Source: Jannaschia seohaensis (lineage in GTDB: Bacteria > Pseudomonadota > Alphaproteobacteria > Rhodobacterales > Rhodobacteraceae). From it: a DNA stretch of 64,000 nucleotides. How positions within the stretch are numbered: position 1 is the first letter of the stretch; the number at the start of each line of letters is the position of its first letter. The stretch lies in contig NZ_UETC01000001.1 of assembly GCF_900116765.1 (NCBI RefSeq), positions 1 through 64,000 on the forward strand, read 5' to 3'. A program made the position numbers and the translations under genes. The notes below the pieces were generated by a model. The model did no database searches. It was not told where the DNA came from and worked only from the letters and a program-made list of their open reading frames with translations. Positions 48,794 through 63,781 of this stretch are shown in pieces.

Positions 48794-49975
48794 ATGAAAG
48801 ACGTCGTTATCCTGGACGGTGCGCGCACCGCGATCGGCACCTTCGGCGGCTCGCTCGCCGGGACGCCGCCGACAGACCTCGCCACCGCCGTGGCCAAGGA
48901 GGCCATCCGCCGCTCGGGCGTCGAGCCGGGCCAGATCGGCGCCTCGGTCTTCGGCCACGTCATCAACACCGAAGCCAAGGACATGTATCTGGGCCGCTAT
49001 GCCGCCGTTCAGGCCGGTGTCCCCGAAGAGGCCACGGGCCTGACCGTCAACCGTCTCTGCGGATCGGGCGCGCAGGCCATCGTGAACGCGGCGCAGCACA
49101 TCATGCTGGGCGACGTGGACTATGCGCTGGCCGGCGGCGCCGAAAGCATGTCCCGCGCGCCGCATTCGACCCAGTCGATCCGGACCGGCCAGAAGATGGG
49201 CGATGTCAGCTTCACCGACATGATGATCGGCGCGCTCAACGACCCCTTCGGCGTCGGCCATATGGGCGTGACCGCCGAGAACGTGGCCGCCGAGAACCAG
49301 ATCACCCGCGAGCAGCAGGATGCTTTCGCCGTCGAGAGCCAGCGCCGTGCGGCGGCGGCGGTCGAGGCCGGCCATTTCAAGAGCCAGATCCTGCCCATCG
49401 AGGTCCGCGTGAAGCGCGACATGGTCGCCTTCGACACCGACGAGCACATCAAGGCCGGCACCACGATGGAAAGCCTCGGCAAGCTGCGTCCGGCCTTCAA
49501 GAAGGACGGCTCGGTCACGGCGGGCAACGCCTCGGGCATCAATGACGGCGCGGCCGCGCTGGTGCTGGCCTCGGCCGACGCCGCCGAGGCCGCCGGGCTC
49601 AAGCCCCGCGCGCGGCTGCTGGGCTATGCCATCGCCGGCGTGCGCCACGAGGTGATGGGCATCGGCCCGGTCCCGGCGGTGACCAACCTGCTCAAGAAGA
49701 TCGACATGACCGCCGATCAGTTCGACGTCATCGAGAGCAACGAAGCCTTCGCCGCGCAAGCTTGCGCCGTGAATGCGGGTCTCGGGCTGAACACCGACAA
49801 GGTGAACCCGAACGGCGGCGCCATCGCCCTGGGCCACCCGATCGGCGCGACCGGCGCGATCATCTCGATCAAGACGCTCTACGAACTGGAGCGGATCGGT
49901 GGTAAATACGGTCTCGTCACGATGTGTATCGGCGGCGGGCAGGGCATCGCCCTGGCGTTTGAGCGCCTTAACTGA
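48794..49975 (+). CDS. phaA: Acetyl-CoA acetyltransferase PhaA
   Basis: 393 aa biosynthetic thiolase. Nucleophile Cys89 in NRLCGSGAQAIVNAAQ, His in ALGHPIGATGA, Cys378 in TMCIGGGQGIAL. Joins two acetyl-CoA, or acetyl-CoA with propionyl-CoA, for PHA monomers. RBS about 8 bp upstream; a hairpin follows the stop before phaC. Confidence 0.93.
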   Translation: MKDVVILDGARTAIGTFGGSLAGTPPTDLATAVAKEAIRRSGVEPGQIGASVFGHVINTEAKDMYLGRYAAVQAGVPEEATGLTVNRLCGSGAQAIVNAAQHIMLGDVDYALAGGAESMSRAPHSTQSIRTGQKMGDVSFTDMMIGALNDPFGVGHMGVTAENVAAENQITREQQDAFAVESQRRAAAAVEAGHFKSQILPIEVRVKRDMVAFDTDEHIKAGTTMESLGKLRPAFKKDGSVTAGNASGINDGAAALVLASADAAEAAGLKPRARLLGYAIAGVRHEVMGIGPVPAVTNLLKKIDMTADQFDVIESNEAFAAQACAVNAGLGLNTDKVNPNGGAIALGHPIGATGAIISIKTLYELERIGGKYGLVTMCIGGGQGIALAFERLN

Positions 49976-49984
49976 CCCGGCCGC

Positions 49985-50008
49985 AGGGGCGCCCGCCAGG
50001 GCGCCTCT
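49985..50008. terminator. Hairpin between phaA and phaC
   Basis: AGGGGCGCCC (49985-49994) pairs with GGGCGCCTCT (49999-50008), ten pairs including one G-U, with a GCCA loop. No T-tract. It may set a lower phaC level than phaA or separate the transcripts; phaC has its own strong AGGAGGAGGA site. Confidence 0.5.
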
Positions 50009-50047
50009 CCTCGCCGCCCGATCGTCCCAAGGAGGAGGACACCCGTC

Positions 50048-51823
50048 ATGCCTGCCGAAAATCCTGACCCAGAACTCCCCGACGTGGCGGAAACAGCGCA
50101 GCGCATGATGGCGCTGACGCAGCGGTCGCTTGCGGCGGCGGCCAAGATGCAGTCCCGCTCTGTCGCGCAGGCCACAGGCTCCGAATATCAGCTGATGGAC
50201 GCGGCCACCCTGACCCGGGCCTACGCCAATGTGTGGGCGCGCGCCCTGACCCGCCCGCAAGATCTCATGGCGGCGCAACTCAAGGCGACGACCGGCTTGG
50301 CGCAGGCCTGGCAGGCGATGCTCATGCCCCGCGAAGGGGAGGTGAAGGACCGCCGCTTCAAGGACGAAAGCTGGTCCTCCGATCCCTTGTCGCGCAGCTA
50401 TCGCGACGCGTTCCTGGCTTTCGAAGGCGCGGTCGAAGAGTTGCTGGAGACGATGACCGAAGAGGGCCGCGACGATCTGCGGGTGAAGTTCTTCACCCGC
50501 CAGGCCGTCAGCGCGCTGTCGCCCGCCAACTACCTCGCGACCAACGCCGCCGCCCGCGCCAAGATGCTGGAGAGCGGCGGGCAAAGCGTGCTCGACGGGC
50601 TCGACAACCTGCTGACCGATCTCGAACGCGGCGACGGGCGGCTCGCCATCGCGACCAATGACGGGCAGGCTTACAAGGTTGGCGTCGATCTGGCCACGAC
50701 CGAAGGCGAGGTCGTCTTCCAGAACGATCTGATGCAGCTGATCCAGTATCACCCGAGGACCGAGACACAATATCAGGTGCCGATGCTCTTCGTCCCGGCC
50801 TGGATCAACAAGTTCTACATTATGGACATGCGTCCGCAGAACAGCCTGATCCGGTATGCGCTGGACCAGGGCCATTCGGTTTTCGTGATCTCCTGGGCGA
50901 ACCCGACCAAGGCGCATGCCGATCTGGATTTCACCGATTACATGACCAAGGGCCCGATCGCGGCGCTTGACGTCATCCGCGACATAACAGGCGAGGAAAA
51001 GGCCAACGTGCTCGGCTTCTGCATCGGCGGAATCCTGGTCACGGCGATGCTGGGCTATCTCGCCGCCAAGGGCGACGACCGCATCAACAGCGCCACGACC
51101 CTGGCCACGATGGTGGATTTCGCGGATGTGGGCGAAATCGGCGTCTTCATCGACGACGACCGGCTGGAGGTTCTGCGCGCACATATGGAAGAGAAGGGCT
51201 ATCTCGACGCCCATCACCTTCAGGACATGTTCTCGATGCTGCGGGAGAACGATCTGATCTGGTCGTTCTACGACGCCAACTACCTGCGCGGGGACAAGCC
51301 GCGGCCGTTCGACCTGCTCTACTGGAACTCGGATTCCACCCGCCTGCCCAAGGCCATGCTGCTTTGGTATCTCGAAGAGATCTATCTCAGGAACAAGCTG
51401 CGCCAGCCCGGCGGGTTGGAAATGGACGGCGTGAAGATCGACATCTCCAAGATCAAGCCGCCGCTCTTCGTGCTGGCCACCGAGGACGATCACATCGCGC
51501 CCTGGCGCTCGATCTATCCGGCCACGCAGATCATGGAGAACGTGGAGTTCGTGCTGGGCGGCTCGGGCCATATCGCGGGCGTCATCAACCCGCCCGGCAA
51601 ACGGATGAAATACGGCTACAAGACCGCGACGCACTATCCCGAGACCGCCGTGGGGTTCCTGCGCGTGGCCGAGAGCCACGAGGGCTCCTGGTGGCCCCAT
51701 TGGGTGCAATGGCTCGACGGCAAGAGCGGGGCGCAGGTCCCGGCGCGCAAGGTCGCCAGGCGCGGGCGCTACAAGTCGCTGGAACCGGCGCCGGGCAGCT
51801 TCGTCACCAGCAAACCGGCCTAG
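50048..51823 (+). CDS. phaC: Class I polyhydroxyalkanoate synthase PhaC
   Basis: 591 aa, the usual class I length. Lipase-like box with the catalytic Cys325 in LGFCIGGILV, Asp480 in ATEDDHIAPW, His508 in GGSGHIAGVINPPG; the last two numbers match the C. necator enzyme. N-terminal ~180 residues are the PhaC_N domain (SYRDAFLAFEGAVEELLETM, NYLATNAAARAKMLESGG). It polymerises (R)-3-hydroxyacyl-CoA onto storage granules. No phaR or phasin gene is next to it. Confidence 0.94.
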   Translation: MPAENPDPELPDVAETAQRMMALTQRSLAAAAKMQSRSVAQATGSEYQLMDAATLTRAYANVWARALTRPQDLMAAQLKATTGLAQAWQAMLMPREGEVKDRRFKDESWSSDPLSRSYRDAFLAFEGAVEELLETMTEEGRDDLRVKFFTRQAVSALSPANYLATNAAARAKMLESGGQSVLDGLDNLLTDLERGDGRLAIATNDGQAYKVGVDLATTEGEVVFQNDLMQLIQYHPRTETQYQVPMLFVPAWINKFYIMDMRPQNSLIRYALDQGHSVFVISWANPTKAHADLDFTDYMTKGPIAALDVIRDITGEEKANVLGFCIGGILVTAMLGYLAAKGDDRINSATTLATMVDFADVGEIGVFIDDDRLEVLRAHMEEKGYLDAHHLQDMFSMLRENDLIWSFYDANYLRGDKPRPFDLLYWNSDSTRLPKAMLLWYLEEIYLRNKLRQPGGLEMDGVKIDISKIKPPLFVLATEDDHIAPWRSIYPATQIMENVEFVLGGSGHIAGVINPPGKRMKYGYKTATHYPETAVGFLRVAESHEGSWWPHWVQWLDGKSGAQVPARKVARRGRYKSLEPAPGSFVTSKPA

Positions 51824-51893: not shown

Positions 51894-53156
51894 TCAGAGT
51901 TGCGCCAAGGCGTCGGCGAAGAACGTCTCGGCCCCGAAATTCCCCGATTTCAGCGTGAGCGCGATCCGGTGCCCGCCGCTGTCGCAGAAGGTCCAGGGCA
52001 CCCCCGGCGCGATCTCCTTGCCGATATCGAGGCGCGTGACGCCGAGCGCTTGGGTGACCGCGCCGGAGGTCTCTCCGCCCGCCACGACGATCCGCCGCGC
52101 CCCGGCATCGCGCGCCGCGACGGCGCAGGCCGCGAGCGCCTGTTCCACGACCTCCCCGGCGCGGTCCCGGCCGAGCGTCTCCTGCGCGGCGCGGACGCTT
52201 GCGGGATCGGCCGTCGCGTAGAGCAGCGGGGCCCGCTCCAGATCCTGCCCCGCCAGCCAGTCCAACGCCGCCTGCGGCCCCGTCCGCGCCAACTCCACCG
52301 GGTCGAGTTGCAGCGCGGGGGCGCCGCTCGCCATGTAGGCCGAAACCTGCGCGTTGGTCATGGCGGAACAGCTGCCCGACAGGACGACCGCCGCCTGGGG
52401 CAGGTCGGGCGCGGCGGCGGCCTCGCTCCGGCCCCCCAGCGCCCCATCCGCGATGTAGAGCGCGGGCAAGGGCATGGCGACGGCACTGCCGCCGGTCATA
52501 AGGGGCATGTCCCGGCAGGCCTCGGCGATGACATAGAGATCTTCATTGGCGACCGCATCCATCACGACATGGGCCACGCCCGCCTCGGACAGCCGCGACA
52601 GCTCCGCGCGGACGGCCTCGACCCCTTGCGCGACCGTCAGCCGATCGACCAGCCCGACCGGCCGCGTGACCTGCGGCGCGAGCAGGCGCATCAGGTTGGA
52701 GTCGCGCATCGGCGTCAGCGGGTGGTCCTTCATCGGGCTTTCCGCAAGGGGCTGCCGCCCGACGAACAGGTTGCCCATGAAGATCGCGCGGCCGTTTTCC
52801 GGGAAGGCGGGGCAATAGATGGTCTGGGACGTCCCGAGATCGGCCATCAGCGCCTCGGCTACCGGACCGATATTGCCCTCCGCCGTGGAGTCGAAGGTGG
52901 AGCAGTATTTCCAGAAGATCCGCTCCGCCCCGGCGCTCTGCAACCAGTCTAGCGCGGCCCGGCAATCGGCCACGGCCTGCGCCACCGGCGCGGTCCGGCA
53001 TTTCAACGCGATGACCTCGAACGGCGCGGGATCTGAGGGCGGCTCGCTCGGGATGCCGATCCGCAGCGACACCGGCACGCCGGACCGGGCAAGTAGCCCG
53101 GCCAGATCCGTCGCTCCGGTGAAATCGTCTGCGATGCAGCCAAGAACCGTGGTCAT
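51894..53156 (-). CDS. otnK: Four-carbon acid sugar kinase (OtnK-like, DUF1537)
   Basis: 420 aa. N-terminal substrate domain starts LGCIADDFTGATDLAGLLAR, the family hallmark; FWKYCSTFDSTAEGNIGPVA and GQPL-like GRQPLAESPMKDHPLTPM follow. C-terminal nucleotide domain with IVVAGGETSGAVTQALGV. OtnK phosphorylates 3-oxo-tetronate (2-oxo-tetronate for DtnK) in C4 acid sugar catabolism. Last gene of a long operon. The aldolase/decarboxylase and isomerase partners (OtnC, OtnI or PdxA2) are not in the window. Confidence 0.8.
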   Translation of the reverse strand: MTTVLGCIADDFTGATDLAGLLARSGVPVSLRIGIPSEPPSDPAPFEVIALKCRTAPVAQAVADCRAALDWLQSAGAERIFWKYCSTFDSTAEGNIGPVAEALMADLGTSQTIYCPAFPENGRAIFMGNLFVGRQPLAESPMKDHPLTPMRDSNLMRLLAPQVTRPVGLVDRLTVAQGVEAVRAELSRLSEAGVAHVVMDAVANEDLYVIAEACRDMPLMTGGSAVAMPLPALYIADGALGGRSEAAAAPDLPQAAVVLSGSCSAMTNAQVSAYMASGAPALQLDPVELARTGPQAALDWLAGQDLERAPLLYATADPASVRAAQETLGRDRAGEVVEQALAACAVAARDAGARRIVVAGGETSGAVTQALGVTRLDIGKEIAPGVPWTFCDSGGHRIALTLKSGNFGAETFFADALAQL

Positions 53157-53179
53157 GGCGGTCTCCTTTCTTCCTGCGT

Positions 53180-54673
53180 CTACGCGGTTCCGGACCGCCG
53201 CGCCCGCAAGGCGGTTATCAGCGGCAGGGCCAGCATGCCCACGGCCAGGATCGCCAGCACCAGGGCGATGGGATGTCCGGTGAAGAAGGCCGCAAAACTG
53301 CCATCGGTGATGATGAGCCCCTGCCGGAGGCTGATCTCCAGCGTCGGCCCCAGCACCATTCCGATCACCAGCGGCGGCATCGGCATGCCCTGACGGCGGA
53401 GGACGAAGCCCAGAATGCCCGCGCCGCCCATCACCAGAAGGTCGAACGGATTACCGCGCACGAAATACACGCCCACCGCGCAAAGCAGCACGATCAGCAC
53501 CAGCATGTAGCCCTCACGCAGGCGCAACAGCGGGGCCGCCCCCTTCGCCACCAGCATGCCCATCGGCAGCAGCATCAGGTTGATCACGAAGAAGCCCGAA
53601 AAGATCGCGGCGATCAGCACCGGGTTGTCGGTCATCAGCCGGATCCCCGGCGTCACGCCGTGCAAGGTCAGCGTCGCCAGCATCACCGCCGTGATCGCAT
53701 CGCCCGGGATGCCCAGCGCCATGGTCGGCACCAGCGCGCCGCCCGTGACGGCGTTGTTCGCGGATTCCGAGGCGATCAGCCCGTCCGGTTCGCCCTTCCC
53801 GAACTTCGCGCGGTTCGGAGACGATCTTTGCGCCTCGGCATAGGAGATGAAGGCCGCGGTCGCCGCGCCGGTGCCGGGCAGGATGCCGATGCCGTTGCCG
53901 ATGGCGACGGATTTCATCAGCCCCTTGATGCGCCCGCGCCAGGCCGAAAGCGGCGGCAGCACGATCCCGGAGAAGGAGACCAGGGACTGGGTGCCTTCCT
54001 CCTTGGCGGCGGCGCGGATCAGGACTTCGGACAAGGCGAAGACGCCGATCACCACCGCCAGCAGGTTGAAGCCGGAGATGAGCTGGAACTGCCCGAAGGT
54101 AAAGCGCGCCTCGCCGGTGATCGGGTCTCCGCCGACGCATCCGAGAAACAGACCGATGCTGCCCGCGACCAGTCCCTTGATCAGCGACCCTTCGGAGACG
54201 GAGACGATACAGGTCAGGCCCAGAAGGATCAGGGCGAAGGTCTCGATCGGGCCGAAATTCAGCGCCAGCGCGGCAAGCTGCGGCGCGGCCAGCAGCAGGA
54301 CGACCGCCGAGGTCAGGCCGCCGATGGTCGAGGCGATGGTGCTCCAGCCCAGCGCCAGACCGGCCTCTCCGCGCTGCGCCATCGGATAGCCGTCGAGGCA
54401 GGTGGCGGCCGATTGCGGTGTCCCGGGCGTGTTGATCAGGATGGCCGAGATCGAGCCGCCATAGACAGAGCCCGCATAGACCGCCAGCAAGAGCAAAATG
54501 GCCGGGGCCTGGCTCATGCCCAGCGTGAAGGGCAGGATCATCGCCACCGCGACGGTAGAGCCGATGCCCGGCAAGGCCCCGAGGATGATGCCCAGCATGG
54601 TGCCCAACACCAGCACGAGCAGACCCTCAAGGGTGAAGATCAGCCCGGCCGCCTGGGGGAGCAATTCGATCAT
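53180..54673 (-). CDS. tctA: Tripartite tricarboxylate transporter large permease TctA (second system)
   Basis: 497 aa with about 12 membrane helices and the duplicated TctA motifs: GALPGIGSTVAVAMILPFTL, YGGSISAILINTPGTPQSAA, GILPGTGAATAAFISYAEAQ, ESANNAVTGGALVPTMALGI. Secondary carboxylate importer subunit. Ends 23 bp before otnK. Distinct from the tctA at 7569. Confidence 0.9.
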   Translation of the reverse strand: MIELLPQAAGLIFTLEGLLVLVLGTMLGIILGALPGIGSTVAVAMILPFTLGMSQAPAILLLLAVYAGSVYGGSISAILINTPGTPQSAATCLDGYPMAQRGEAGLALGWSTIASTIGGLTSAVVLLLAAPQLAALALNFGPIETFALILLGLTCIVSVSEGSLIKGLVAGSIGLFLGCVGGDPITGEARFTFGQFQLISGFNLLAVVIGVFALSEVLIRAAAKEEGTQSLVSFSGIVLPPLSAWRGRIKGLMKSVAIGNGIGILPGTGAATAAFISYAEAQRSSPNRAKFGKGEPDGLIASESANNAVTGGALVPTMALGIPGDAITAVMLATLTLHGVTPGIRLMTDNPVLIAAIFSGFFVINLMLLPMGMLVAKGAAPLLRLREGYMLVLIVLLCAVGVYFVRGNPFDLLVMGGAGILGFVLRRQGMPMPPLVIGMVLGPTLEISLRQGLIITDGSFAAFFTGHPIALVLAILAVGMLALPLITALRARRSGTA

Positions 54674-54682
54674 GGCACGGTC

Positions 54683-55132
54683 TCAGAACCACCACGCGAC
54701 GGGCGAGGTCGGCAGCGGCAAGGTCAAAAGGTGGTTGAACAGCGCCACGAGCGCCGCCGGAACGCCAAGGCTCACGGCTGCCACGGGCACGGGCCGGCGC
54801 AGACCCAGCGTCACCAGCGCCACCGCTGAGAACGGGACCGCCGCCAGAAAGAACCCGATGCGGGTCATGGCCAGTAGAAAGACCAACGAGGCCAGGGCGA
54901 TCACAGTGACGCGCAGCAGCTGCGGGCGGGTGCCGACGACACGCTGGCGCAGCTCCGCCACGAGGTCCAGCGCCGCGACCGCGACCCAGAAGCTCAGGAC
55001 GATCTGCGGAAAGAACATCGGACTGAACGCACCCAGCCCGGAATAGGCCTGGCCGAAGGTCTGCGACAGCAAGGCCATGCCGACCAGCAGCAGCACTAGC
55101 GATGTCACCCGCCGTTCGGTCAGGATGGACAT
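54683..55132 (-). CDS. tctB: Tripartite tricarboxylate transporter small permease TctB (second system)
   Basis: 149 aa with four hydrophobic segments (SLVLLLVGMALLSQTFG; IVLSFWVAVAALDLVAEL; LLRVTVIALASLVFLLAM; VSLGVPAALVALFNHLLT), the TctB layout. Stop is 9 bp from tctA. Assigned by topology, size and place. Confidence 0.85.
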   Translation of the reverse strand: MSILTERRVTSLVLLLVGMALLSQTFGQAYSGLGAFSPMFFPQIVLSFWVAVAALDLVAELRQRVVGTRPQLLRVTVIALASLVFLLAMTRIGFFLAAVPFSAVALVTLGLRRPVPVAAVSLGVPAALVALFNHLLTLPLPTSPVAWWF

Positions 55133-55158
55133 GGCGCGTCTCCTTCGGAGGACAGGGT

Positions 55159-55181
55159 GGGGTGCCGTAGGCCGGCACCCC
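55159..55181. terminator. Intra-operon hairpin between tctC and tctB (second system)
   Basis: GGGGTGCCG (55159-55167) pairs with CGGCACCCC (55173-55181) around TAGGC, 8 bp past the tctC stop on the minus strand. Same position and type as the hairpin at 9674-9696. Confidence 0.55.
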
Positions 55182-55189
55182 GGATCGCC

Positions 55190-56146
55190 TTACAGGCCCG
55201 CGGCCTCGATGATCGCGGTGTTGCCTTCGTATTGCGCGCGGAAGAACGCGTCGAACGCCTCGGCGTCGCGGTAGTTCAGCACGGTCTGCGTGTCGGCCGC
55301 GAAGCTCTGGAAGCCCTCGGACGCCACGGCGGCCCCGCAGGCCTCCGACAGCTTGGCGACGACGTCGTCAGGCGTGCCGGCCGGCGCGAAGAGCCCGCCC
55401 CAGAGATAGAGCTCGTTCAGGGGCGCCGCGATGCCCACCTCGGTCGCCGTCGGCACGTCGGGGAAGTTCTCCGATCGCGCGTCCGAGAAGATCACCAGAG
55501 GGGTGAAATCGCCGCGCTGCATCAGGATTTCGGTGTCGCCGAAGAACTGGATGGTCCCCGCCGCCATCGCCTGCAAGGCCGGGCCGGAGCCCTGGAACGG
55601 CAGATGCTTGATCTTGTCCAGAACGCCCAGCCCCTCAAAGGCCGCGACGGTCGTCAGATGGGTCATCGCGCCCGGGCCGGACGAGCCGAACAGGTATTTG
55701 CCCGGCTCCGCCTCGATGGCCGCCTTGGCTTGCTCGATGGTCTCGATGCCATTGCCGGCATTCGTGAACAGCATGGTCGGCGAGGCCGCGACCGAGCAGA
55801 TCGGCTCCCAGCTGTCGATGCCGTAGGGCACGTCCTTGATCTGCGGCTGGATGGTGCTGACGGTGACCGACCAGTAGCCGAGCTGATAGCCGGTGGGCCG
55901 CTGCCCCGCGAGCGCGCCCGCCGCCACCGTGCCGGAGCCGCCCGCCATGTTCGACACGAAGACGTCGCCGCCCAGCGCCTCGGCCAGATAGGGCGCGAAG
56001 CCGCGCACCAGCAGGTCCGTCCCGCCGCCCGCGTTGAACGGCACGACCAGGTTCACGGGCCGCTCGGGGAAGTCCTGCGCCAGGGCCGGGGCCGCCGCCG
56101 ATGTGGCGAGCACGGCAAGGCTTGCGATAAGGGTTTTAATATTCAT
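55190..56146 (-). CDS. tctC: TctC-type periplasmic binding protein (second system)
   Basis: 318 aa with a Sec signal (LIASLAVLATSAAAPALA). Bug family body: FPERPVNLVVPFNAGGGTDL, FVSNMAGGSGTVAAGALAGQ, FGSSGPGAMTHLTTVAAFEG. GGGAGG-type RBS precedes the ATG. Binds the carboxylate carried by the second TctAB; in this operon a sugar acid such as a tetronate or aldonate is a fair guess (inference). Confidence 0.9.
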   Translation of the reverse strand: MNIKTLIASLAVLATSAAAPALAQDFPERPVNLVVPFNAGGGTDLLVRGFAPYLAEALGGDVFVSNMAGGSGTVAAGALAGQRPTGYQLGYWSVTVSTIQPQIKDVPYGIDSWEPICSVAASPTMLFTNAGNGIETIEQAKAAIEAEPGKYLFGSSGPGAMTHLTTVAAFEGLGVLDKIKHLPFQGSGPALQAMAAGTIQFFGDTEILMQRGDFTPLVIFSDARSENFPDVPTATEVGIAAPLNELYLWGGLFAPAGTPDDVVAKLSEACGAAVASEGFQSFAADTQTVLNYRDAEAFDAFFRAQYEGNTAIIEAAGL

Positions 56147-56202
56147 GGTTTCCTCCCTGTTGGTTGTTCATGCGATCCGCGGTCGCCGCCCGTGCAGGCG
56201 AG

Positions 56203-57099
56203 TCAGTCCTTGGACTCGGGCAGCGTCAGCCCGGCGTTGCGGGCATAGACCTTGGCAATCGCCGCGTCGTCCTCGTGCCCCAGCCCCATGCCGACGGCGA
56301 CCATGTATTGCTGAAGGGCCGTCGCCGTGATCGGCGCCGAGAAGCCGGCGGATTTGGCCACGTCCAGCACGATGCCAAGATCCTTGGGCCAGATGTTGAT
56401 CTGGCTGCGCGGCGTATAATCCCCGTCGACGATATGCGGCGCGCGGTTTTCCAGCATCCAGCTGGTCCCGGCGCATTTGCTGATCACCTCGACGAATTGC
56501 GCGGGATCGACGCCTTGGGTCATCCCGAAGGTCATCGCCTCGGCCATGGCCGCGATATGCACACCGGCGAGCAGCTGGTTGACCGCCTTCATGGCCGATC
56601 CCGGCCCGGCCGCGTCGCCCAGGGTGAACACGGTCTCGGCACAGGCGTCGAGCACCGGCCGCGCGGCGGCGAAGGCCTCGGGCGTGCCCGACGCCATGAT
56701 CGACAGAGCGCCCGCCGCCGCCTTGGCCGCGCCGCCCGAAATCGGCGCGTCGAGGTAATGCACCCCGGCCTCGCCACACCGCGCCTCCATGTCCCGCGCG
56801 AAGGCGGGCGGCACGGTCGCGCAGGAGATGACGACGGCGCCCTTGGGCAGGGTCGCGACGATCCCGCTCTCGCCGAACAGCACCGCCTCGGTCTGCGCGG
56901 CGTTCAGCACGACGATGACGGCGACATCGAGATCGGAGGGCAGGGCTCCCGTCTCGCCGCCCTCGCCCTGGAACCGCTTGACCGCCTCGGGATTGATGTC
57001 CGCGCCCCAGGTCCGATGCCCGGCCCGCAGACAGGATTTGGCCATCCCATACCCCATCGACCCCAGGCCGATCACCGCTGTCTTTGTCGCCTCTGTCAT
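56203..57099 (-). CDS. ltnD: L-threonate dehydrogenase-like 3-hydroxyacid dehydrogenase (LtnD)
   Basis: 298 aa from ATG 57099, whose ATGA overlaps the lactonase stop. NAD site IGLGSMGYGMAKSCLRAGH, substrate motif DAPISGGAAKAAAGALSIMA, catalytic Lys in PGSAMKAVNQLLAGVHIAA. The stretch CAGTSWMLENRAPHIVDGDY followed by PKDLGIVLDVAKSAG is closest to LtnD (L-threonate 2-dehydrogenase). It would oxidise the imported or lactonase-derived C4 acid to the 2-oxo acid. Related enzymes act on tartronate semialdehyde or 3-hydroxyisobutyrate. Confidence 0.78.
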   Translation of the reverse strand: MTEATKTAVIGLGSMGYGMAKSCLRAGHRTWGADINPEAVKRFQGEGGETGALPSDLDVAVIVVLNAAQTEAVLFGESGIVATLPKGAVVISCATVPPAFARDMEARCGEAGVHYLDAPISGGAAKAAAGALSIMASGTPEAFAAARPVLDACAETVFTLGDAAGPGSAMKAVNQLLAGVHIAAMAEAMTFGMTQGVDPAQFVEVISKCAGTSWMLENRAPHIVDGDYTPRSQINIWPKDLGIVLDVAKSAGFSAPITATALQQYMVAVGMGLGHEDDAAIAKVYARNAGLTLPESKD

Positions 57100-58055
57100 G
57101 CGCCTTCCCCTTTCGTCTGTGTCGTTGGACGGCGTGCCGCATCCCGGCGCGTGGTGTGGACGCGCCAGACGCGGTCCGAAGAGGTGATGAACATCTCCGT
57201 GCCGGTCTCGCCGCCAAAGCAGAGATTGGCCGTGGGGGCCGGCAACAGGATCTTGCCCAGGCAGTGCCCCTCGGGCGACAGGCAACGGATCCCGTCCATC
57301 GCGCTCGTCCAGACAAAGCCCTCGTGGTCGACCCGCAGCCCATCGGGCACGCCCGGCTCGATCTCGGCAAAGACGGACCCGCCGCTCAGCGTCGTTCCGT
57401 CCACCTCGAAGACCCGGATATGGTGCGGCAGGTCATAGTCGATGCCGGGAAAGCTCGCGCCCCGGATGGCTCCGGAATCGGCGATGTAGAGCTTGCGCTC
57501 GTCCGGCGAGAAGGCGAGCCCGTTCGGCTTGTCGAAATCCGTGGCGACCGGGGTGAGCGTGCCGTCCGGGCTGGCGCAGAAGACGAAGCAGCCGCCGATC
57601 TCGCTCTCCGCCGGATAGCCCTCGACATCGGAGTTGATGCCGTAAGGCGGATCGGTGAACCAGACCGAGCCATCGGAGCGCACCACGACATCGTTGGGCG
57701 AGTTGAGCCGCTTGCCCTCGAACCGATCCGCGATGACCTCGACCGCCGCCGGGTCTTCGCTGTCCAGACGCCGGATCACGCGCCGCCCGCCATGTTCGCA
57801 GGACACCATGCGCCCTTGCAGATCCAGCGTGTTGCCGTTGGCGAATTCACTGTTCTCCAGCGCAACGGAGACTCCTGCGTCGGGCTGCCATTTCAGCATC
57901 CGCTTAGCGGGAATGTCGTTGAAATAGAGCGCGCCGTTCTGCCAGACCGGCCCCTCGGTCCAGGTATAGCCGCCGGTGATCTCCTCCGGGGGCCGGTCCA
58001 GGTCGATCATCTCGGCGAAAGCCGGATCGAAGGTCTCGTAGGTTGCGGATGTCAT
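57096..58055 (-). CDS. SMP-30/gluconolactonase family lactonase
   Basis: 319 aa six-bladed beta-propeller. Metal ligands are visible: Glu in YTWTEGPVWQNGALYFND, Asn in NSPNDVVVRSDGSVWFTDPP, Asn in DKPNGLAFSPDERKLYIADS, Asp in GVPDGLRVDHEGFVWTSAMD. Hydrolyses a sugar lactone to the aldonate, with a divalent metal. No signal peptide, so cytosolic. Between the ABC importer and LtnD in one operon, giving lactone to acid to oxo acid. Confidence 0.87.
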   Translation of the reverse strand: MTSATYETFDPAFAEMIDLDRPPEEITGGYTWTEGPVWQNGALYFNDIPAKRMLKWQPDAGVSVALENSEFANGNTLDLQGRMVSCEHGGRRVIRRLDSEDPAAVEVIADRFEGKRLNSPNDVVVRSDGSVWFTDPPYGINSDVEGYPAESEIGGCFVFCASPDGTLTPVATDFDKPNGLAFSPDERKLYIADSGAIRGASFPGIDYDLPHHIRVFEVDGTTLSGGSVFAEIEPGVPDGLRVDHEGFVWTSAMDGIRCLSPEGHCLGKILLPAPTANLCFGGETGTEMFITSSDRVWRVHTTRRDAARRPTTQTKGEGA

Positions 58056-58058
58056 GCG

Positions 58059-59012
58059 TCAGCCCTCCCTGCCGCGAAGTGTCTGAACCATCAGCATCGT
58101 GATGATGAGGACGCCGAAAATGATGCTGCGCCACGCATCGGACATCTGCATGACCGACAGGATCGAGTTGAGCAGCGTGATGAAAAACACGCCGCCCACC
58201 GTCCCCAGCAATCCGCCCTTGCCGCCGAGGATCGACGTGCCGCCGATCACCACCGCCGCGATGGTCGGCAGCAGGTAGGGATCGCCCATCGATTGGTAGG
58301 CCTGGTTCGCATAGCCCGCCAAAAGCACCCCGCCGAGGGCGGAGCACAGGCCCGCGATGGAAAAGGCGGCGAACAGGACCGACGGTGTCGAGACCCCCGA
58401 CAGGAACGTGGCCTTTTCGTTATAGCCGATCGCCGAAAGATACCGCCCGAACCCCGTGCGATGCAGCATCAGCGCCAGCCCGACCGCCACCGCCATCCAA
58501 AGCAGGAAGGCCACGGGAATGCCGGCCAGCTTGCCGGTGGCCAGCCAGTTCATCGTCGCGCTGGCTTCGCCCTTGGGGTTGAACCCGCCGGTATAGAGAA
58601 CGGAGATGCCCAGCAGCATCGAGTTCACGGCCAGTGTCCAGACCATGGACGGGATCCGCAGCAGCGCCACGCCCACCGCGTTGATCAGACCGATCAGCCC
58701 GCCGAAGGCCAGCGCCGCCGGGATCGCCAGCGCCGTCAGCAGCGGATCGCCGGTCCCCGCCAGCGTGGTCGAGATCAGAGCGGCCCCGCCCAGCACCCAA
58801 GGCACGGACAGGTCGATGTGACCCAGCAGGATCACGATGGTCGCGCCCATGGCGATGACGCCGAGAAAGGCCGCGATCTGCAATTGTTGAGAAAGATATC
58901 CGATCCCCAGCATCTGCGGAAAGAACAGGCTGCCCCCCAGGATCAGCAGGACCGTCGCCGCAAAGGGCAACAGGGTCGTCAGGTCCAGGCGCCGGGCGAT
59001 CGCGAGGCTCAT
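58059..59012 (-). CDS. RbsC-type sugar ABC permease 2
   Basis: 317 aa with about ten membrane helices. BPD_transp_2 pattern: GVIAMGATIVILLGHIDLSV, GLIGLINAVGVALLRIPSMV, and AAVVIGGTSILGGKGGLLGT near the end. One of two related channel subunits of a ribose/rhamnose-type importer. Overlaps the other permease by 4 bp. Confidence 0.9.
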   Translation of the reverse strand: MSLAIARRLDLTTLLPFAATVLLILGGSLFFPQMLGIGYLSQQLQIAAFLGVIAMGATIVILLGHIDLSVPWVLGGAALISTTLAGTGDPLLTALAIPAALAFGGLIGLINAVGVALLRIPSMVWTLAVNSMLLGISVLYTGGFNPKGEASATMNWLATGKLAGIPVAFLLWMAVAVGLALMLHRTGFGRYLSAIGYNEKATFLSGVSTPSVLFAAFSIAGLCSALGGVLLAGYANQAYQSMGDPYLLPTIAAVVIGGTSILGGKGGLLGTVGGVFFITLLNSILSVMQMSDAWRSIIFGVLIITMLMVQTLRGREG

Positions 59013-59974
59013 CGGGCAAAGACCTCCAGACGGTTGCGGACCCGCAGGACATCGGCGCCGCCGATGGCGATGGCCGCCGCCAGGACGAGCCCCTCGACGA
59101 AGGGCTGCGCCAGGGGCGGCAGACCGGAGAAGAACATCAGCGCCCCGATGGTTTTAAGGATGAAGGCCCCCGCAATCGCCCCGATCAGCGACCCCACCCC
59201 GCCGCGCAGCGCGACGCCGCCCAGCACCACCGCCGCGATGGAGTTCAGCGTGAAATTGGCCGCGATCCCGGCATCTCCGGTCGTGGTCACGAAGCTGAAG
59301 TAGAGCCCCGCCAACCCGGCAAAGAGCCCGCCCAGCCCGAAGGAGATCATCCGCACCAGCGGGACCTGGATGCCCGACTGAAACGCCGCCTGCTCCGACG
59401 AACCGATGGCATAGAGACCCAGGCCCAGCCCGGTCCGGCGCAGCGGGATCCAGAACAGGCCGATCACCGCCGCCGTGATGAGGAGCGCGGTCGGAATGCC
59501 CAGAACATCCAGCGTCATCGCATCCGCGAGGTCATAGTTGATGACCCCACCCGGCGTCGGCCGCAGGATCAGGGCGAGGCCGACGAAGATCGAGGCCGTC
59601 GCCAGCGTCACCACGATGGGCTGGATGCGGGCGAAAACCACCAGCGCGCCGTTGAGCAAGCCGCAGGCAACGCCCGCGGCCAGCACCAGCGCCGCCCCCC
59701 CGAGCAGGCTGATCCCCTCGCCGCCCATGACATGCGAGGCGATGGTGTTGGTCAGCGCCATCACCGCGCCCACCGACAGGTCGATGCCGCGCACGATCAC
59801 CGCGAAGAACTGCGCCGCCGCCGCCAGCGCCAGGATCAGGCACTGGTTGGCCCAGATCGTCATCACATAGGTACTCATCCCGCGCGGATGGGTCGACAGA
59901 TAGACCGTCAGCAGGAACAGCAAGACGGCGACCGCGATCGCCTCCCGGCGATTGGCTCTCAGGAATTCAGGCAT
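59009..59974 (-). CDS. RbsC-type sugar ABC permease 1
   Basis: 321 aa with about ten helices; AAQFFAVIVRGIDLSVGAVM, GVACGLLNGALVVFARIQPI, AAVVLGGVALRGGVGSLIGA. Two non-identical permeases are typical of rhamnose- and erythritol-type importers. Start overlaps the ATPase stop by 8 bp. Confidence 0.9.
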   Translation of the reverse strand: MPEFLRANRREAIAVAVLLFLLTVYLSTHPRGMSTYVMTIWANQCLILALAAAAQFFAVIVRGIDLSVGAVMALTNTIASHVMGGEGISLLGGAALVLAAGVACGLLNGALVVFARIQPIVVTLATASIFVGLALILRPTPGGVINYDLADAMTLDVLGIPTALLITAAVIGLFWIPLRRTGLGLGLYAIGSSEQAAFQSGIQVPLVRMISFGLGGLFAGLAGLYFSFVTTTGDAGIAANFTLNSIAAVVLGGVALRGGVGSLIGAIAGAFILKTIGALMFFSGLPPLAQPFVEGLVLAAAIAIGGADVLRVRNRLEVFAR

Positions 59975-61481
59975 GGGTGCCTCCCTGCGCCGGCAGGTTA
60001 AGGGTCGCGGCGAGAATGTTCTCGGCCGTCACGGCATCGCCCTGGAGATGGCGCACGACGCGACCGTCATAGAAGATGTGGGTCTCGTCGCAGAGATGGA
60101 TGAACTCCTCGTAATCGGTCGACAGCAGCAGGATGGCGGTGCCTTCGTCCGCGAGCCGACGCAGCAGCTCGTAAATCTGCGTCTTGGTCTTGACGTCGAT
60201 CCCCCGCGTCGGGTCGGCCAGCAGCAGGCAACGGGGCTTGAGCGCCAGCCATTTGGTTAGCGCAACTTTCTGCTGGTTGCCGCCCGAGAGCTGGCCGACC
60301 GGCTGATCCAGAGAGGCGTATTTGAGCTGGAGCGCGTCGATATAGGGCCGGTAGAGCACGGGATCCGACGCCGGAACGCCATCCACGCCCAGCGCTGCGA
60401 GCTGCATGTTCGCCGCGATGCTCTGCTGGAGAACCAGCGCCTCGGTCTTGCGGTCCTCGGGCACGAGCGCGATGCTGATATCGGGCCGCTTGGCGTCCTT
60501 GGGCGACGCGATCTGGATCTCCCGGCCGTCCAGGACGATGTCTCCTTCGGTCTTTCGCAGCAGACCGAACAGCCCTTGCAGAACCCGGGCCTGCCCCTGA
60601 CCGTCGAGCCCGCCCAGCCCGGTGATGCAGCCCTTGCGCAGGGTGATCGAGACGTCCTTCAGCCCGTCCTCCCAGCCGAAGCCGTCCAGGCGCAGGACGA
60701 CCTCCGCATCCGGCTTGGCCTCGGGCTTGGCGGGGAAGAGATCGTCGATCTTCTGGCCGACCATCTTGTTGATGATCGCCGGGTAATCATAGGCGCCATT
60801 GTCAAATGTCTCGACATGGCGGCCGTTGCGAAAGACCGACACACGGTCCGCCAGCGCCTCGATCTCGTGAAAGCGGTGCGAAATGAACAGCACCCCGATG
60901 CCGCGCGCGCTTTCCTCGCGGATCACGGTGAACACCTTTTCCACGACCGAGGCGTTGAGCGCCGATGTCGCCTCGTCGAGGATCAGGAGACGCGGCTCCC
61001 GGGCCAATGCCTTGGCGATCTCGACCTGCTGCCGCTCCGCGAGGCTCAGATCGGCAAGCCGCGCGCGCATGGGGATATGGCCGCCATCGATCCGCGCCAG
61101 CAGATCACACGCCACGGTCAGGGTGCGGCCCGAGAGCCTGCCCAACCCAGTGCCCGGCGCGCCGAGCATCAGGTTTTCACGCACGGTCAGATCGGGGATC
61201 AGCGAGAGTTCCTGGAACATGCAGACCAGGCCGCGCGACACGGCCTCACGCGGAGAGCGCAGCGCGACGGGCTCGCCATCGACATGGACCACCCCCTCGG
61301 TCGGCTGGATCACCCCGGCGATGATCTTCATCAGGGTCGACTTCCCGGCCCCATTCTCGCCCAGCACGGCGTGGATTTCCCCGGCATTGCAGTCGAAATT
61401 CACGCCGTCCAGCGCGACGGTCGCGCCATAGCGCTTGGTCACGCCCTCAAGACGGACGATGGGGGAAGGGGACGTCGCCAC
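59967..61481 (-). CDS. RbsA-type double-domain sugar ABC ATPase
   Basis: 504 aa with two NBDs. NBD1: Walker A GENGAGKSTL, signature LSLAERQQVEIAKALARE, Walker B LLILDEATSALN. NBD2: degenerate Walker A GLDGQGQARVLQ, signature LSGGNQQKVALTKWL, LLLADPTRGIDVKT. Standard for CUT2 (ribose/xylose/rhamnose) importers. GC-rich inverted repeat separates it from the binding-protein gene. Confidence 0.92.
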   Translation of the reverse strand: MATSPSPIVRLEGVTKRYGATVALDGVNFDCNAGEIHAVLGENGAGKSTLMKIIAGVIQPTEGVVHVDGEPVALRSPREAVSRGLVCMFQELSLIPDLTVRENLMLGAPGTGLGRLSGRTLTVACDLLARIDGGHIPMRARLADLSLAERQQVEIAKALAREPRLLILDEATSALNASVVEKVFTVIREESARGIGVLFISHRFHEIEALADRVSVFRNGRHVETFDNGAYDYPAIINKMVGQKIDDLFPAKPEAKPDAEVVLRLDGFGWEDGLKDVSITLRKGCITGLGGLDGQGQARVLQGLFGLLRKTEGDIVLDGREIQIASPKDAKRPDISIALVPEDRKTEALVLQQSIAANMQLAALGVDGVPASDPVLYRPYIDALQLKYASLDQPVGQLSGGNQQKVALTKWLALKPRCLLLADPTRGIDVKTKTQIYELLRRLADEGTAILLLSTDYEEFIHLCDETHIFYDGRVVRHLQGDAVTAENILAATLNLPAQGGTHA

Positions 61482-61504
61482 GGGAACCTCCGGCGGAGCG
61501 GTCT

Positions 61505-61540
61505 GGCCGGCCCGGGGCGCGCGACGGCGCCGGGCCGGCC
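61505..61540. terminator. Intra-operon inverted repeat after RbsB-like gene
   Basis: GGCCGGCCCGG (61505-61515) pairs with CCGGGCCGGCC (61530-61540), 11 bp, with a 14-nt GC-rich loop that can pair further. It lies between the binding-protein stop and the ATPase start on the minus strand. Confidence 0.55.
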
Positions 61541-61547
61541 CGCCTGG

Positions 61548-62627
61548 TCAGGTATTGTCGGCGGTTTGGCCGAGCAGTTCTTCCGGCGTGAACGGCGCGA
61601 AACAGTCCGGGAAGCCGGTGCCGGTGTTGAACGACTTCGGCAGGTCCGGGAAGTAGTTCACGCCCGGCGCGAGATCCTCGGACTTGACCTGCGGGATCGG
61701 CAAATAGACCGTCTGCGGCAGGGCGTTGCCCTCCAGCAGCGCGACCGCCGCCTCCAGCGCAATGGCCGACATGGCCGGTGCCTGGCTGGCGGAGATGCCG
61801 GGGATGTCCAGCTCGTCCATCAGCATCCGCACGCCGTTTTCGCCGTCGACACCCATCGGCACGATCGGATGGCCCGCCGCCTGCATGGCGTTGATCGTGC
61901 CCGCCGCGCCGTGCTGCGAGACGACCCCGTCGAACTGACCATGGGTGGCCAGCGCGTCCGAGACGACCTTTTGGCTGGTGCCGGTGTCCCAGTTGCCGAC
62001 GACTTCGACGATTTCGAGCCCTTCGACATTCTCCAGCACGCTCATCATGCCGATGCGCCGGTCGCGGTCGGTGGCGTTACCCGGCAGGCCGTTCACCATC
62101 AGGATCTTGTCGGCCTCGCCGCCCAGCAGATCCATGACCGTCTGCGCCTTGAGGCGGCCGAGCTCGACCTGGCTTTCGTTGATCTGAACCACGCGGTCGG
62201 TATCGAGCACGTTGTCGAAGGGAACCAGCACGGTGCCCGCCCGCTCGGCCCGGCGAATCACTGGCTCGAAGGCGGTCGGGTTGACGGCGATGAAGGTGAT
62301 GGCGTCGAAGCCGGCGGCGATGAAATTGTCGATCGCGGCGATTTGCGCGGCGCTGTCATTGCCGACGGAGACGACGTTGAACTCTTCGATCTTGGCCGCG
62401 TTCTCGGGCCGGGCGGCCCAGGCCTTGGCCGCCTGAATCGCGGCAATCCGCCAGTCGTTGCCGGCAAACCCGTTCACGAAGGCGATCTTGTAGGGGCCCT
62501 CTTTCGCCTCATAGCTGATCGTCGACGTCCCCGGGGCAGGAGCAAAGCACTCGGGACGATAGGTGTCGGCCATGGCAATGCCGGCGGTCGCAAACGCAAC
62601 GGCCGAGCCGAGCAAAAGTGATCTCAT
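61548..62627 (-). CDS. RbsB-type sugar-binding protein
   Basis: 359 aa from ATG 62627, with GGGAGGA upstream and a signal peptide (LLLGSAVAFATAGIAMA). Peripla_BP_4 body: YKIAFVNGFAGNDWRIAAIQ, NDSAAQIAAIDNFIAAGFDA, LVPFDNVLDTDRVVQINESQ, VSQHGAAGTINAMQAAGHPI. Binds a sugar, polyol or lactone in the periplasm for the CUT2 importer. First gene of the ten-gene operon; divergent from lacI with two operators. Confidence 0.9.
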   Translation of the reverse strand: MRSLLLGSAVAFATAGIAMADTYRPECFAPAPGTSTISYEAKEGPYKIAFVNGFAGNDWRIAAIQAAKAWAARPENAAKIEEFNVVSVGNDSAAQIAAIDNFIAAGFDAITFIAVNPTAFEPVIRRAERAGTVLVPFDNVLDTDRVVQINESQVELGRLKAQTVMDLLGGEADKILMVNGLPGNATDRDRRIGMMSVLENVEGLEIVEVVGNWDTGTSQKVVSDALATHGQFDGVVSQHGAAGTINAMQAAGHPIVPMGVDGENGVRMLMDELDIPGISASQAPAMSAIALEAAVALLEGNALPQTVYLPIPQVKSEDLAPGVNYFPDLPKSFNTGTGFPDCFAPFTPEELLGQTADNT

Positions 62628-62643
62628 TGTTTTCCTCCCAATG

Positions 62644-62665
62644 GCGATGTTTTCGTAAACATCGC
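62644..62665. promoter_or_regulatory. LacI-type operator 1
   Basis: GCGATGTTT (62644-62652) and AAACATCGC (62657-62665) form a 22-bp dyad with a TCGT centre (CpG in the middle), as in LacI/GalR operators. It overlaps the 5' leader of the RbsB-like operon. Confidence 0.75.
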
Positions 62666-62678
62666 AGCGGCACAATTA

Positions 62679-62692
62679 TGTTTACGTAAACA
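62679..62692. promoter_or_regulatory. LacI-type operator 2
   Basis: TGTTTACGTAAACA is a perfect 14-bp palindrome with the LacI-family central CpG. Its centre is 31 bp, about three helical turns, from that of operator 1, so one repressor tetramer or two dimers could bind the same face. Confidence 0.8.
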
Positions 62693-62761
62693 CTTGTCAA
62701 TCACATTCTCACCCTCCAAGGTTCAACCGGGCACTCGAACCAACCGCGAAAGGCCGCGCCA

Positions 62762-63781
62762 ATGGCCGGAAGAACGGACTCGCGGCCGACGATGGACGAC
62801 ATCGCGGCGGCCGCCGGCGTCAGCCAGATGACCGTATCGCGTGTGATGCGCGGCACGGGGCAGACCTCTCAGGAGGTGCGGCAACGGGTCGAAAGCGCCG
62901 CGCGAAAACTCGGCTATGTTCCGAACCGCCTGGCGACCGCCTTGCGCGACGAAACCGCGCCTCTGATCGCCGTCGTGCTCCCGACCCTGGGAAACCGCGT
63001 CTTCTCGGAGGTTCTCAACGGGGTGCATGCGACGCTGGCGGGCACCGGGCTGCAACCGGTCTTCGGCGTGACGGAATATTCCGTCGATCAAGAAGAGACG
63101 CTCGTCCGCGATCTGTTGTCCTGGCGCCCGCGCGGCATCATCCTCCCGGGGCTGGAGCATAGCGATGCCACCCGCGCCGCGATCCGGGCCTCGGGCGTTC
63201 GCGTCGCCGAGGTCATGGATATTGACGGCGAGCCGATCTCGGTCGCCTTCGGCCTGTCCCAGAGCGCGGCGGGCCGAGCCACCGCCCGTCACATGCTGTC
63301 CAAGGGCTATCGCCGGTTCGGCTATATCGGCAGCCAGGGCGGGCTCGACCTGCGGGCGGTCAAGCGCTTCGACGGGTTTCGGGCCACTATTCGCGAAGCG
63401 GGCGCCCAGATCGTCGCCGAACGTGTCCTGCCGGGCGCCTCCTCCATGACCGACGGCCGCAGGGAGACCGCCGCGATGCTGTCGGCGCAGGATCCACCGG
63501 ACGCGATCTACTATTCTAATGACGACCTGGCCGCCGGTGGCATCATGCACTGCCTCGCCGAAGGGATCGCGATCCCGGCGCAGGTCGCGCTCGCCGGGTT
63601 CAACGGCCTGGCCTTCCTCGAAGCGCTGCCGGTGCGGCTGACGACGATCGAGACGCCGCGCCTCCAGATGGGCGTTCAGGCCGCCTTGCACCTGATCGGG
63701 CAGGACAAGGACGACGCCGACACATCCGCCCCCCGCATCGTCGACCTCGGATTTCGTCTCATCGACGGCGACACCTGCTAG
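62762..63781 (+). CDS. LacI-family transcriptional repressor
   Basis: 339 aa. HTH at ~10-35 (TMDDIAAAAGVSQMTVSRVM), hinge helix region LGYVPNRLATAL, then a periplasmic-binding-protein-like effector domain (PLIAVVLPTLGNRVFSEVLN, YYSNDDLAAGGIMHCLAEGI, IPAQVALAGFNGLAF). GntR/GalR-like subgroup. It probably represses the divergent ten-gene operon until the sugar or an intermediate binds. Single gene. Confidence 0.9.
   Translation: MAGRTDSRPTMDDIAAAAGVSQMTVSRVMRGTGQTSQEVRQRVESAARKLGYVPNRLATALRDETAPLIAVVLPTLGNRVFSEVLNGVHATLAGTGLQPVFGVTEYSVDQEETLVRDLLSWRPRGIILPGLEHSDATRAAIRASGVRVAEVMDIDGEPISVAFGLSQSAAGRATARHMLSKGYRRFGYIGSQGGLDLRAVKRFDGFRATIREAGAQIVAERVLPGASSMTDGRRETAAMLSAQDPPDAIYYSNDDLAAGGIMHCLAEGIAIPAQVALAGFNGLAFLEALPVRLTTIETPRLQMGVQAALHLIGQDKDDADTSAPRIVDLGFRLIDGDTC

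Follow-up and report, generated by a model that had tools for sequence, protein, structure and literature searches.

Why should one bacterial operon encode two importers of unrelated build? The question arises in a stretch of 64,000 nucleotides from Jannaschia seohaensis (NZ_UETC01000001.1, positions 1 to 64,000; hereafter the window), in which ten complete, open, co-directional genes on the minus strand (51894-62627) encode an ATP-binding cassette (ABC) importer of the CUT2 type, a tripartite tricarboxylate transporter (TTT), a lactonase, a dehydrogenase and a kinase. We propose, at a probability of about 0.72, that they form an inducible operon with two points of entry, which serves the catabolism of L-threonate or of a tetronate very close to it. 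The genes, assigned to families with Pfam and NCBIfam profiles, are given in their order along the operon:

61548..62627, minus strand: CUT2-type periplasmic binding protein (SBP; Peripla_BP_4); start ATG 62627, preferred over the mechanical TTG call
59967..61481, minus strand: ABC ATPase of RbsA/AraG type; two ABC_tran stretches, that is, two ABC domains
59009..59974, minus strand: ABC permease 1 (BPD_transp_2)
58059..59012, minus strand: ABC permease 2 (BPD_transp_2)
57096..58055, minus strand: SMP-30/gluconolactonase-like lactonase (SGL, PF08450, 150.6 bits; 3e5z match, 1.7e-63)
56203..57099, minus strand: LtnD, L-threonate dehydrogenase (NF043037, 431 bits; cut-off 350)
55190..56146, minus strand: TctC, TTT binding protein (PF03401, above gathering score)
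54683..55132, minus strand: TctB, small TTT membrane subunit (PF07331, above gathering score)
53180..54673, minus strand: TctA, large TTT membrane subunit (PF01970, 467 bits, above gathering score)
51894..53156, minus strand: OtnK, 3-oxo-tetronate kinase (SBD_N + NBD_C; NF043035, 544 bits; cut-off 350)

The operon and its predicted route

An earlier note on this DNA had described a ten-gene minus-strand unit with a complete CUT2 importer and a complete TctCBA; all ten genes are present, open and in the same direction, and every importer subunit could be assigned to its family. The ATGA and 8-bp overlaps that it reported are real as well, the intergenic distances from 5' to 3' being 66, -8, -4, 3, -4, 56, 57, 9 and 23 bp. 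A scan for promoters and terminators found such sites no more often than in shuffled sequence (five terminator-like sites against 5.7 expected, one promoter-like site against 1.0). When three intra-operon gaps were folded, TctC-TctB alone departed from its shuffles (z -2.8), with a hairpin that has no T run. Given the short gaps and overlaps and the chance level of terminator and promoter sites, the ten genes are likely to lie on a single transcript.

In the proposed route, the acid anion (L-threonate or a close relative) would enter through TctCBA, and the ABC importer would bring in a neutral precursor. A tetronolactone is the likeliest candidate, and the SMP-30 lactonase would open it to the acid. 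Both entries would meet at LtnD, predicted from its family to oxidise the acid to 2-oxo-tetronate. An OtnI-like protein encoded on another contig, C10, would isomerise this product, a step proposed mostly from context; the operon's OtnK would then phosphorylate 3-oxo-tetronate, and the OtnC encoded on C10 would decarboxylate the OtnK product to dihydroxyacetone phosphate, both roles being predicted at the family level. This four-step L-threonate pathway is said to be that of Zhang et al. 2016. According to the available portion of PMC12540250, the LtnD, OtnI, OtnK and OtnC reactions do take L-threonate to dihydroxyacetone phosphate.

The link to threonate is carried by the two enzymes of the operon that belong to this pathway. 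The dehydrogenase scores 431 bits for L-threonate dehydrogenase and 187 for the next family, and it is the sole LtnD above the cut-off in the genome; the kinase scores 544 bits as OtnK, compared with 128 as D-threonate kinase and 114 as OiaK, the 3-oxo-isoapionate kinase. Both exceed the curated equivalog cut-offs, which upholds the LtnD-like and OtnK-like calls made before. The D-threonate and 3-oxo-isoapionate routes were rejected because the kinase scores so much higher as OtnK. The substrate might nevertheless be a different four-carbon (C4) acid, for example an isomer of erythronate, or else a branched acid or a C5-C6 aldonate, with LtnD and OtnK as homologues of shifted specificity: SMP-30 and CUT2 proteins form broad families, D-threonate and 3-oxo-isoapionate kinases belong to the kinase family as well, and the LacI-type repressor described below is nearest to gluconate and idonate regulators. 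The margins by which LtnD and OtnK prefer their own families, together with an OtnC that exceeds its cut-off, make such a shift unlikely.

But where are the remaining enzymes? OtnC and OtnI had been reported as missing, which holds for the operon and not for the genome, where a search found the pair on C10 (121192-122543). OtnC (match 121192-121794; PF00596) scores 279 bits against a cut-off of 250, and the OtnI-like gene (match 121824-122543), whose best family is NF043033, overlaps the end of otnC. LtnD and OtnK have no match in the 19-kb stretch around the pair. Since OtnC and an OtnI-like protein are encoded together there, the four-step L-threonate route is probably complete in the genome, and would presumably be so in vivo. 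A second OtnK (C18:257692-258903; L019:9172-10443) scores 492 bits, is 62% identical to the operon's and stands alone, about 6 kb from a polyhydroxyalkanoate (PHA)-synthase-like gene named by eye.

Operators and repressor

The region upstream of the SBP gene holds the elements that would make the operon inducible:

62762..63781, plus strand: LacI-family repressor, divergent (PF00356; best match the GntR (gluconate) subfamily, 313 bits, below the cut-off of 400)
62695..62700, minus strand: -35-like hexamer TTGACA, 2 nt before O1 (TTGAC 3 nt before O1)
62679..62692, no strand: predicted LacI operator O1, TGTTTACGTAAACA, a perfect palindrome, conserved
62648..62661, no strand: predicted LacI operator O2, TGTTTTCGTAAACA (plus-strand reading), conserved

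The two operators are spaced by 31 bp. Nowhere else in the assembly (4.84 Mb, 37 contigs) does TGTTTWCGWAAACA match with at most one mismatch, and its backwards control gave 0 matches there. Upstream of orthologous SBP genes, 27 of 32 loci carry one or more sites that differ from TGTTTACGTAAACA by no more than a single mismatch; 26 carry two or more, and in all 26 of the latter TTGAC stands exactly 3 nt ahead of the first operator. Six family loci (L153-L158) show the same operator pattern. The set of 32 differs from the 31 loci used for gene counts below by L223, whose SBP identity rounds to 76% and lies just below it. Because both the operators and the TTGAC spacing are conserved across orthologous loci, a case of good phylogenetic footprinting, we infer that a LacI-family protein blocks one promoter through two operators and is relieved by an inducer; the LacI helix-turn-helix domain and the conserved palindromes thus back the LacI control that the earlier note had proposed. 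The promoter scan did not report the operon promoter, perhaps, we think, owing to a weak -10, and conservation was relied on instead. Among named relatives, gluconate and idonate regulators come closest to the repressor, with scores below their cut-offs; this nearness would agree with a sugar-acid inducer without proving it.

The two importers in relatives

At E 1e-30 or better, the SBP search of 394 family genomes matched 21, the window included; a search of 20 same-genus genomes (its own included) gave one further strong SBP orthologue, in G302, and a named-genome scan covered the best 80 of 133 SBP loci. The locus sets share genomes (L098/L157/L208; L153/L219; L156/L220). BLAST rows were dropped at less than 30-40% query coverage, at less than 30% identity for the hydrolase discussed below, and where a weaker row overlapped another; an OtnK just under 40% (L210) was counted as missing.

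Among the 31 named loci with an SBP of at least 76% identity, both permeases, the ATPase and SMP-30 are found in 30, the exception being a 5-kb contig. At the thresholds used, the pathway enzymes follow with LtnD in 24, OtnK in 22, OtnC in 18 and OtnI in 17, and all five enzymes occur in 15 of the 29 loci having at least 9.5 kb downstream. The common operon in relatives reads ABC, SMP-30, LtnD, OtnK, OtnC, OtnI and has the same two operators. The otnK match starts at most 32 bp past the ltnD match in all 24 named loci with both on the SBP strand, and also in 4 of 4 such loci of the family set, which overlaps the named genomes; unlike these relatives, the window has the 3-kb tctCBA block between ltnD and otnK. 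Since the uninterrupted ABC-SMP30-LtnD-OtnK-OtnC-OtnI order is the majority state, tctCBA, which in other genomes is mostly a separate unit under a LacI of its own, would have moved in between ltnD and otnK, with otnC and otnI now at another locus. Four loci (L195, L196, L198, L215) have ABC-SMP30-LtnD-OtnK with no OtnC or OtnI match at the locus, and the OtnK of L215 looks shortened.

At 60-76% SBP identity (20 loci), OtnK and OtnC are found in 15, LtnD in 14 and OtnI in 13. Fourteen of these loci (L226-L239; rhizobia and close metagenome-assembled genomes, MAGs) have a rearranged order, with OtnK-OtnC on one side of LacI and ABC, LtnD and, where the contig reaches, OtnI on the other; some carry a distant SMP-30 on the ABC side. 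They lack a TGTTTACGTAAACA site, even with one mismatch allowed, over the 260 bp that precede the SBP match. Below 60% identity, OtnK and OtnC were found in 0 of 29 loci at the thresholds used.

Five loci (L201, L216, L217, L218, L222) keep ABC-SMP30 without an LtnD match, with unrelated-looking genes adjoining, which makes SMP-30 the importer's most constant enzyme partner. As the operon also encodes no sugar dehydrogenase, a lactone is the simplest choice for the imported ABC substrate. The earlier suggestion of a sugar or lactone may accordingly be narrowed to the lactone, a sugar being less likely. The predicted SBP model (predicted local distance difference test, pLDDT, 89) has ribose-type binding proteins as its nearest solved folds; its structural neighbours are sugar binders of a general kind, so that the structure does not point to a ligand. 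For TctC the model is of poor quality (pLDDT 66).

Of the 394 family genomes, 12 (counting the window) contain a TctC orthologue at E 1e-60 or better; the 12 kin loci examined are all 11 outside the window (G185 being L156) and the same-genus L153. In five of them LtnD, OtnK or the ABC-SMP30 set lies near TctC. L192 holds LacI, TctCBA, an alpha/beta-hydrolase, LtnD, OtnK, OtnC and OtnI, the whole pathway, and also carries a TauE/SafE permease; L185 has TctCBA, hydrolase, LtnD and OtnK, where the contig ends, and L183 has TctCBA and LtnD. TctCBA thus runs into ltnD in three genera, into otnK as well in two of these and into the whole pathway in one. The remaining two show the importers facing each other: in L153 an ABC-SMP30-LtnD-OtnK-OtnC-OtnI operon is convergent with a LacI-TctCBA-hydrolase unit, and in L156 TctCBA is convergent with ABC-SMP30. 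One locus of the named set, L199 (from a Natronohydrobacter MAG), carries a complete operon from the ABC genes to OtnI, with TctA and the hydrolase immediately upstream. In L188, a 43% LtnD relative 4.4 kb from TctC was counted as unlinked. That orthologues of both importers each adjoin LtnD/OtnK-type genes in other genera favours the idea, put forward in the earlier note, that two unrelated importers would feed one pathway.

The five of 12 linked loci correspond to a binomial tail of 1.6e-5 at 0.03 per locus, a value that we estimated roughly from the number of loci and the size of the genome. TctC-positive genomes carry an above-cut-off OtnK in 6 of 7 cases, compared with 92 of the 288 remaining genomes (p 0.006). 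For SBP-positive genomes the figures are 5 of 5, compared with 93 of the 290 remaining (p 0.004). Both Fisher tests ignore kinship and include the window's genome, and SBP matches at or below 53% identity were not counted positive. The TctC-positive genome without OtnK, G212, is 62% complete. TctA and TctC of other clades (35-49% and 26-34% identity) lie near OtnK in six of 60 neighbourhoods (L056, L068, L076, L093, L106, L109), the 60 being taken from 109 above-cut-off rows listed (hand count). Recruitment of TTT importers to the tetronate pathway may for this reason recur, and a TTT importer beside a C4-acid kinase, which had been called uncommon, is not so rare.

An alpha/beta-hydrolase gene follows TctA in four of the 12 kin loci (L153, L156, L185, L192); it is 3-oxoadipate enol-lactonase-like, below the cut-off in the three scanned, and for the L156 copy the match came from BLAST on L220, which seems to be the same contig. 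The product is possibly an esterase or lactonase for the TTT substrate. The window's genome gave no hydrolase match at E 1e-20, a search without positive control, whose empty result therefore carries no weight by itself. With this gene in some kin, and with an oxalyl-threonate route taken from the accessible part of the plant literature (PMC6099474), the locus could be seen as scavenging vitamin C breakdown products in ionised and neutral form: TctCBA would take L-threonate or oxalyl-L-threonate, ABC and SMP-30 would take the lactone or cyclic ester, and the kin hydrolase would be the esterase for oxalyl-L-threonate. We regard this more specific version as tentative and rather unlikely.

Several findings weigh against an L-threonate operon with two entry points. 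The single transcript has gene spacing as its sole basis, and the otnC/otnI locus on C10 was without an operator in the genome-wide TGTTTWCGWAAACA search, which leaves co-regulation unsupported. The operators are missing in five of the 32 loci (L216, L217, L221, L222, L223). The OtnI-like protein stays below its equivalog cut-off (228 bits against 325); since OtnI proteins adjoining OtnC in two kin also fall short of 325 (264 in L153, 192 in L192), this threshold may be set high for the lineage. Sequence identity between the SBP and the 50 listed solved chains is only 17-28%. Seven of the 31 ABC-SMP30 loci, one of them truncated, lack an LtnD match, so that what the ABC system imports might in some cases go into a different pathway. 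As for TctCBA, seven of the 12 loci have no LtnD, OtnK or ABC-SMP30 orthologue nearby, and a LacI gene adjoins it in nine, from which it may answer to a different inducer in kin. Palindromes upstream of TctC in three of the 12 differ from the ABC-operon operator, in a scan that required a central CG and had no chance control; two further palindromes from the same scan (L155, L190) were taken as chance. TGACARCGYTGTCA, drawn from the three, has no match with up to one mismatch in the window's genome. Given the separate LacI genes and palindromes of kin, shared induction of tctCBA with the ABC genes may be peculiar to this genome.

Could the two importers then serve different substrates, TctCBA having been placed here by rearrangement with another carboxylate as its ligand, and only ABC-SMP30 feeding LtnD and OtnK? 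The separate LacI genes, the unlinked units and, in the three loci with a clear one, the differing palindromes all fit this. Yet in L192, L185 and L183 TctCBA continues into LtnD, and the stretches examined there contain no ABC set; moreover, orthologous Tct genes adjoin the same gene sets in differing arrangements (window, L153, L156, L192, L199), which renders separate substrates distinctly unlikely. That the operon is a decaying remnant whose kinase product is unusable for want of linked otnC/otnI, as the unlinked pair here, the four loci that have LtnD and a whole or partial OtnK without an OtnC/OtnI match, and the shortened-looking OtnK of L215 might suggest, is very improbable in view of ten open frames with strong family scores, two intact operators, and an OtnC and an OtnI-like gene in the genome.

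Relation to known systems

The predicted L-threonate operon shares LtnD and OtnK, and through the genome OtnC, all above their cut-offs, with the four-step pathway as given in the accessible part of PMC12540250; it differs in that otnC and the otnI-like gene are unlinked and that two importers and an SMP-30 lactonase are added. A described L-threonate/D-erythronate system likewise has LtnD, OtnK, OtnI and OtnC under repressor control, reported as co-transcribed, but with a DeoR-family repressor and an mfs gene in place of the LacI, ABC and TTT components found here. The CUT2 set agrees with RbsABC-type importers in its two-ABC-domain ATPase, two permeases and RbsB-like binding-protein fold, and departs from them in its linkage to a lactonase and the tetronate pathway. 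A TTT transporter reportedly figures in alginate use in a 2026 paper. Reported TTT ligands include citrate, sulfolactate, terephthalate, adipate and galactarate/glucarate, as far as the available text of PMC5812351 goes. The full TctC, TctB and TctA complement matches this transporter type, of which sugar diacids are already reported ligands; the C4 sugar monoacid predicted here differs, and no such ligand appears in the portion of PMC5812351 consulted.

In the one open-access library searched we found no report of a threonate-importing TctCBA (subscription journals could hold one), no mention of threonate with TTT transporters or with Rhodobacteraceae, and no pairing of CUT2 and TTT importers on one tetronate pathway. 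A term search of the main text of a LacI regulon survey (PMC4052901) gave neither 'threonate' nor 'Tct'. The pathway is known, as are the two kinds of transporter and the kind of regulator; what would be new is the importer pairing, the build of the operon and a TTT clade with C4 sugar acids as its predicted substrates.

What would follow for other genomes? The analysis yields ligand predictions for two importer clades without a known ligand, a CUT2 clade that is conserved among roseobacter-type genomes and has rhizobial relatives adjoining the same pathway, and a TctCBA clade whose orthologues adjoin the threonate pathway in several genera. An additional transporter would have joined the operon, and the final two enzymes are encoded at another locus, so the earlier picture of a pathway lacking steps needs correcting. 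In the accessible part of PMC12540250, threonate is a plant vitamin C breakdown product, so the prediction bears on the bacterial use of ascorbate residues. Should vitamin C scavenging prove true, roseobacter-type bacteria and rhizobia would carry dedicated importers for these breakdown products, and C4 sugar monoacids would have to be added to the substrate range of TTT importers.

Next to the operon, on the plus strand at 48794-51823, lie acetyl-CoA acetyltransferase-like and PHA-synthase-like genes, named by eye from their translations. The PHA-synthase-like gene converges on otnK, with a gap of 70 bp between their ends.

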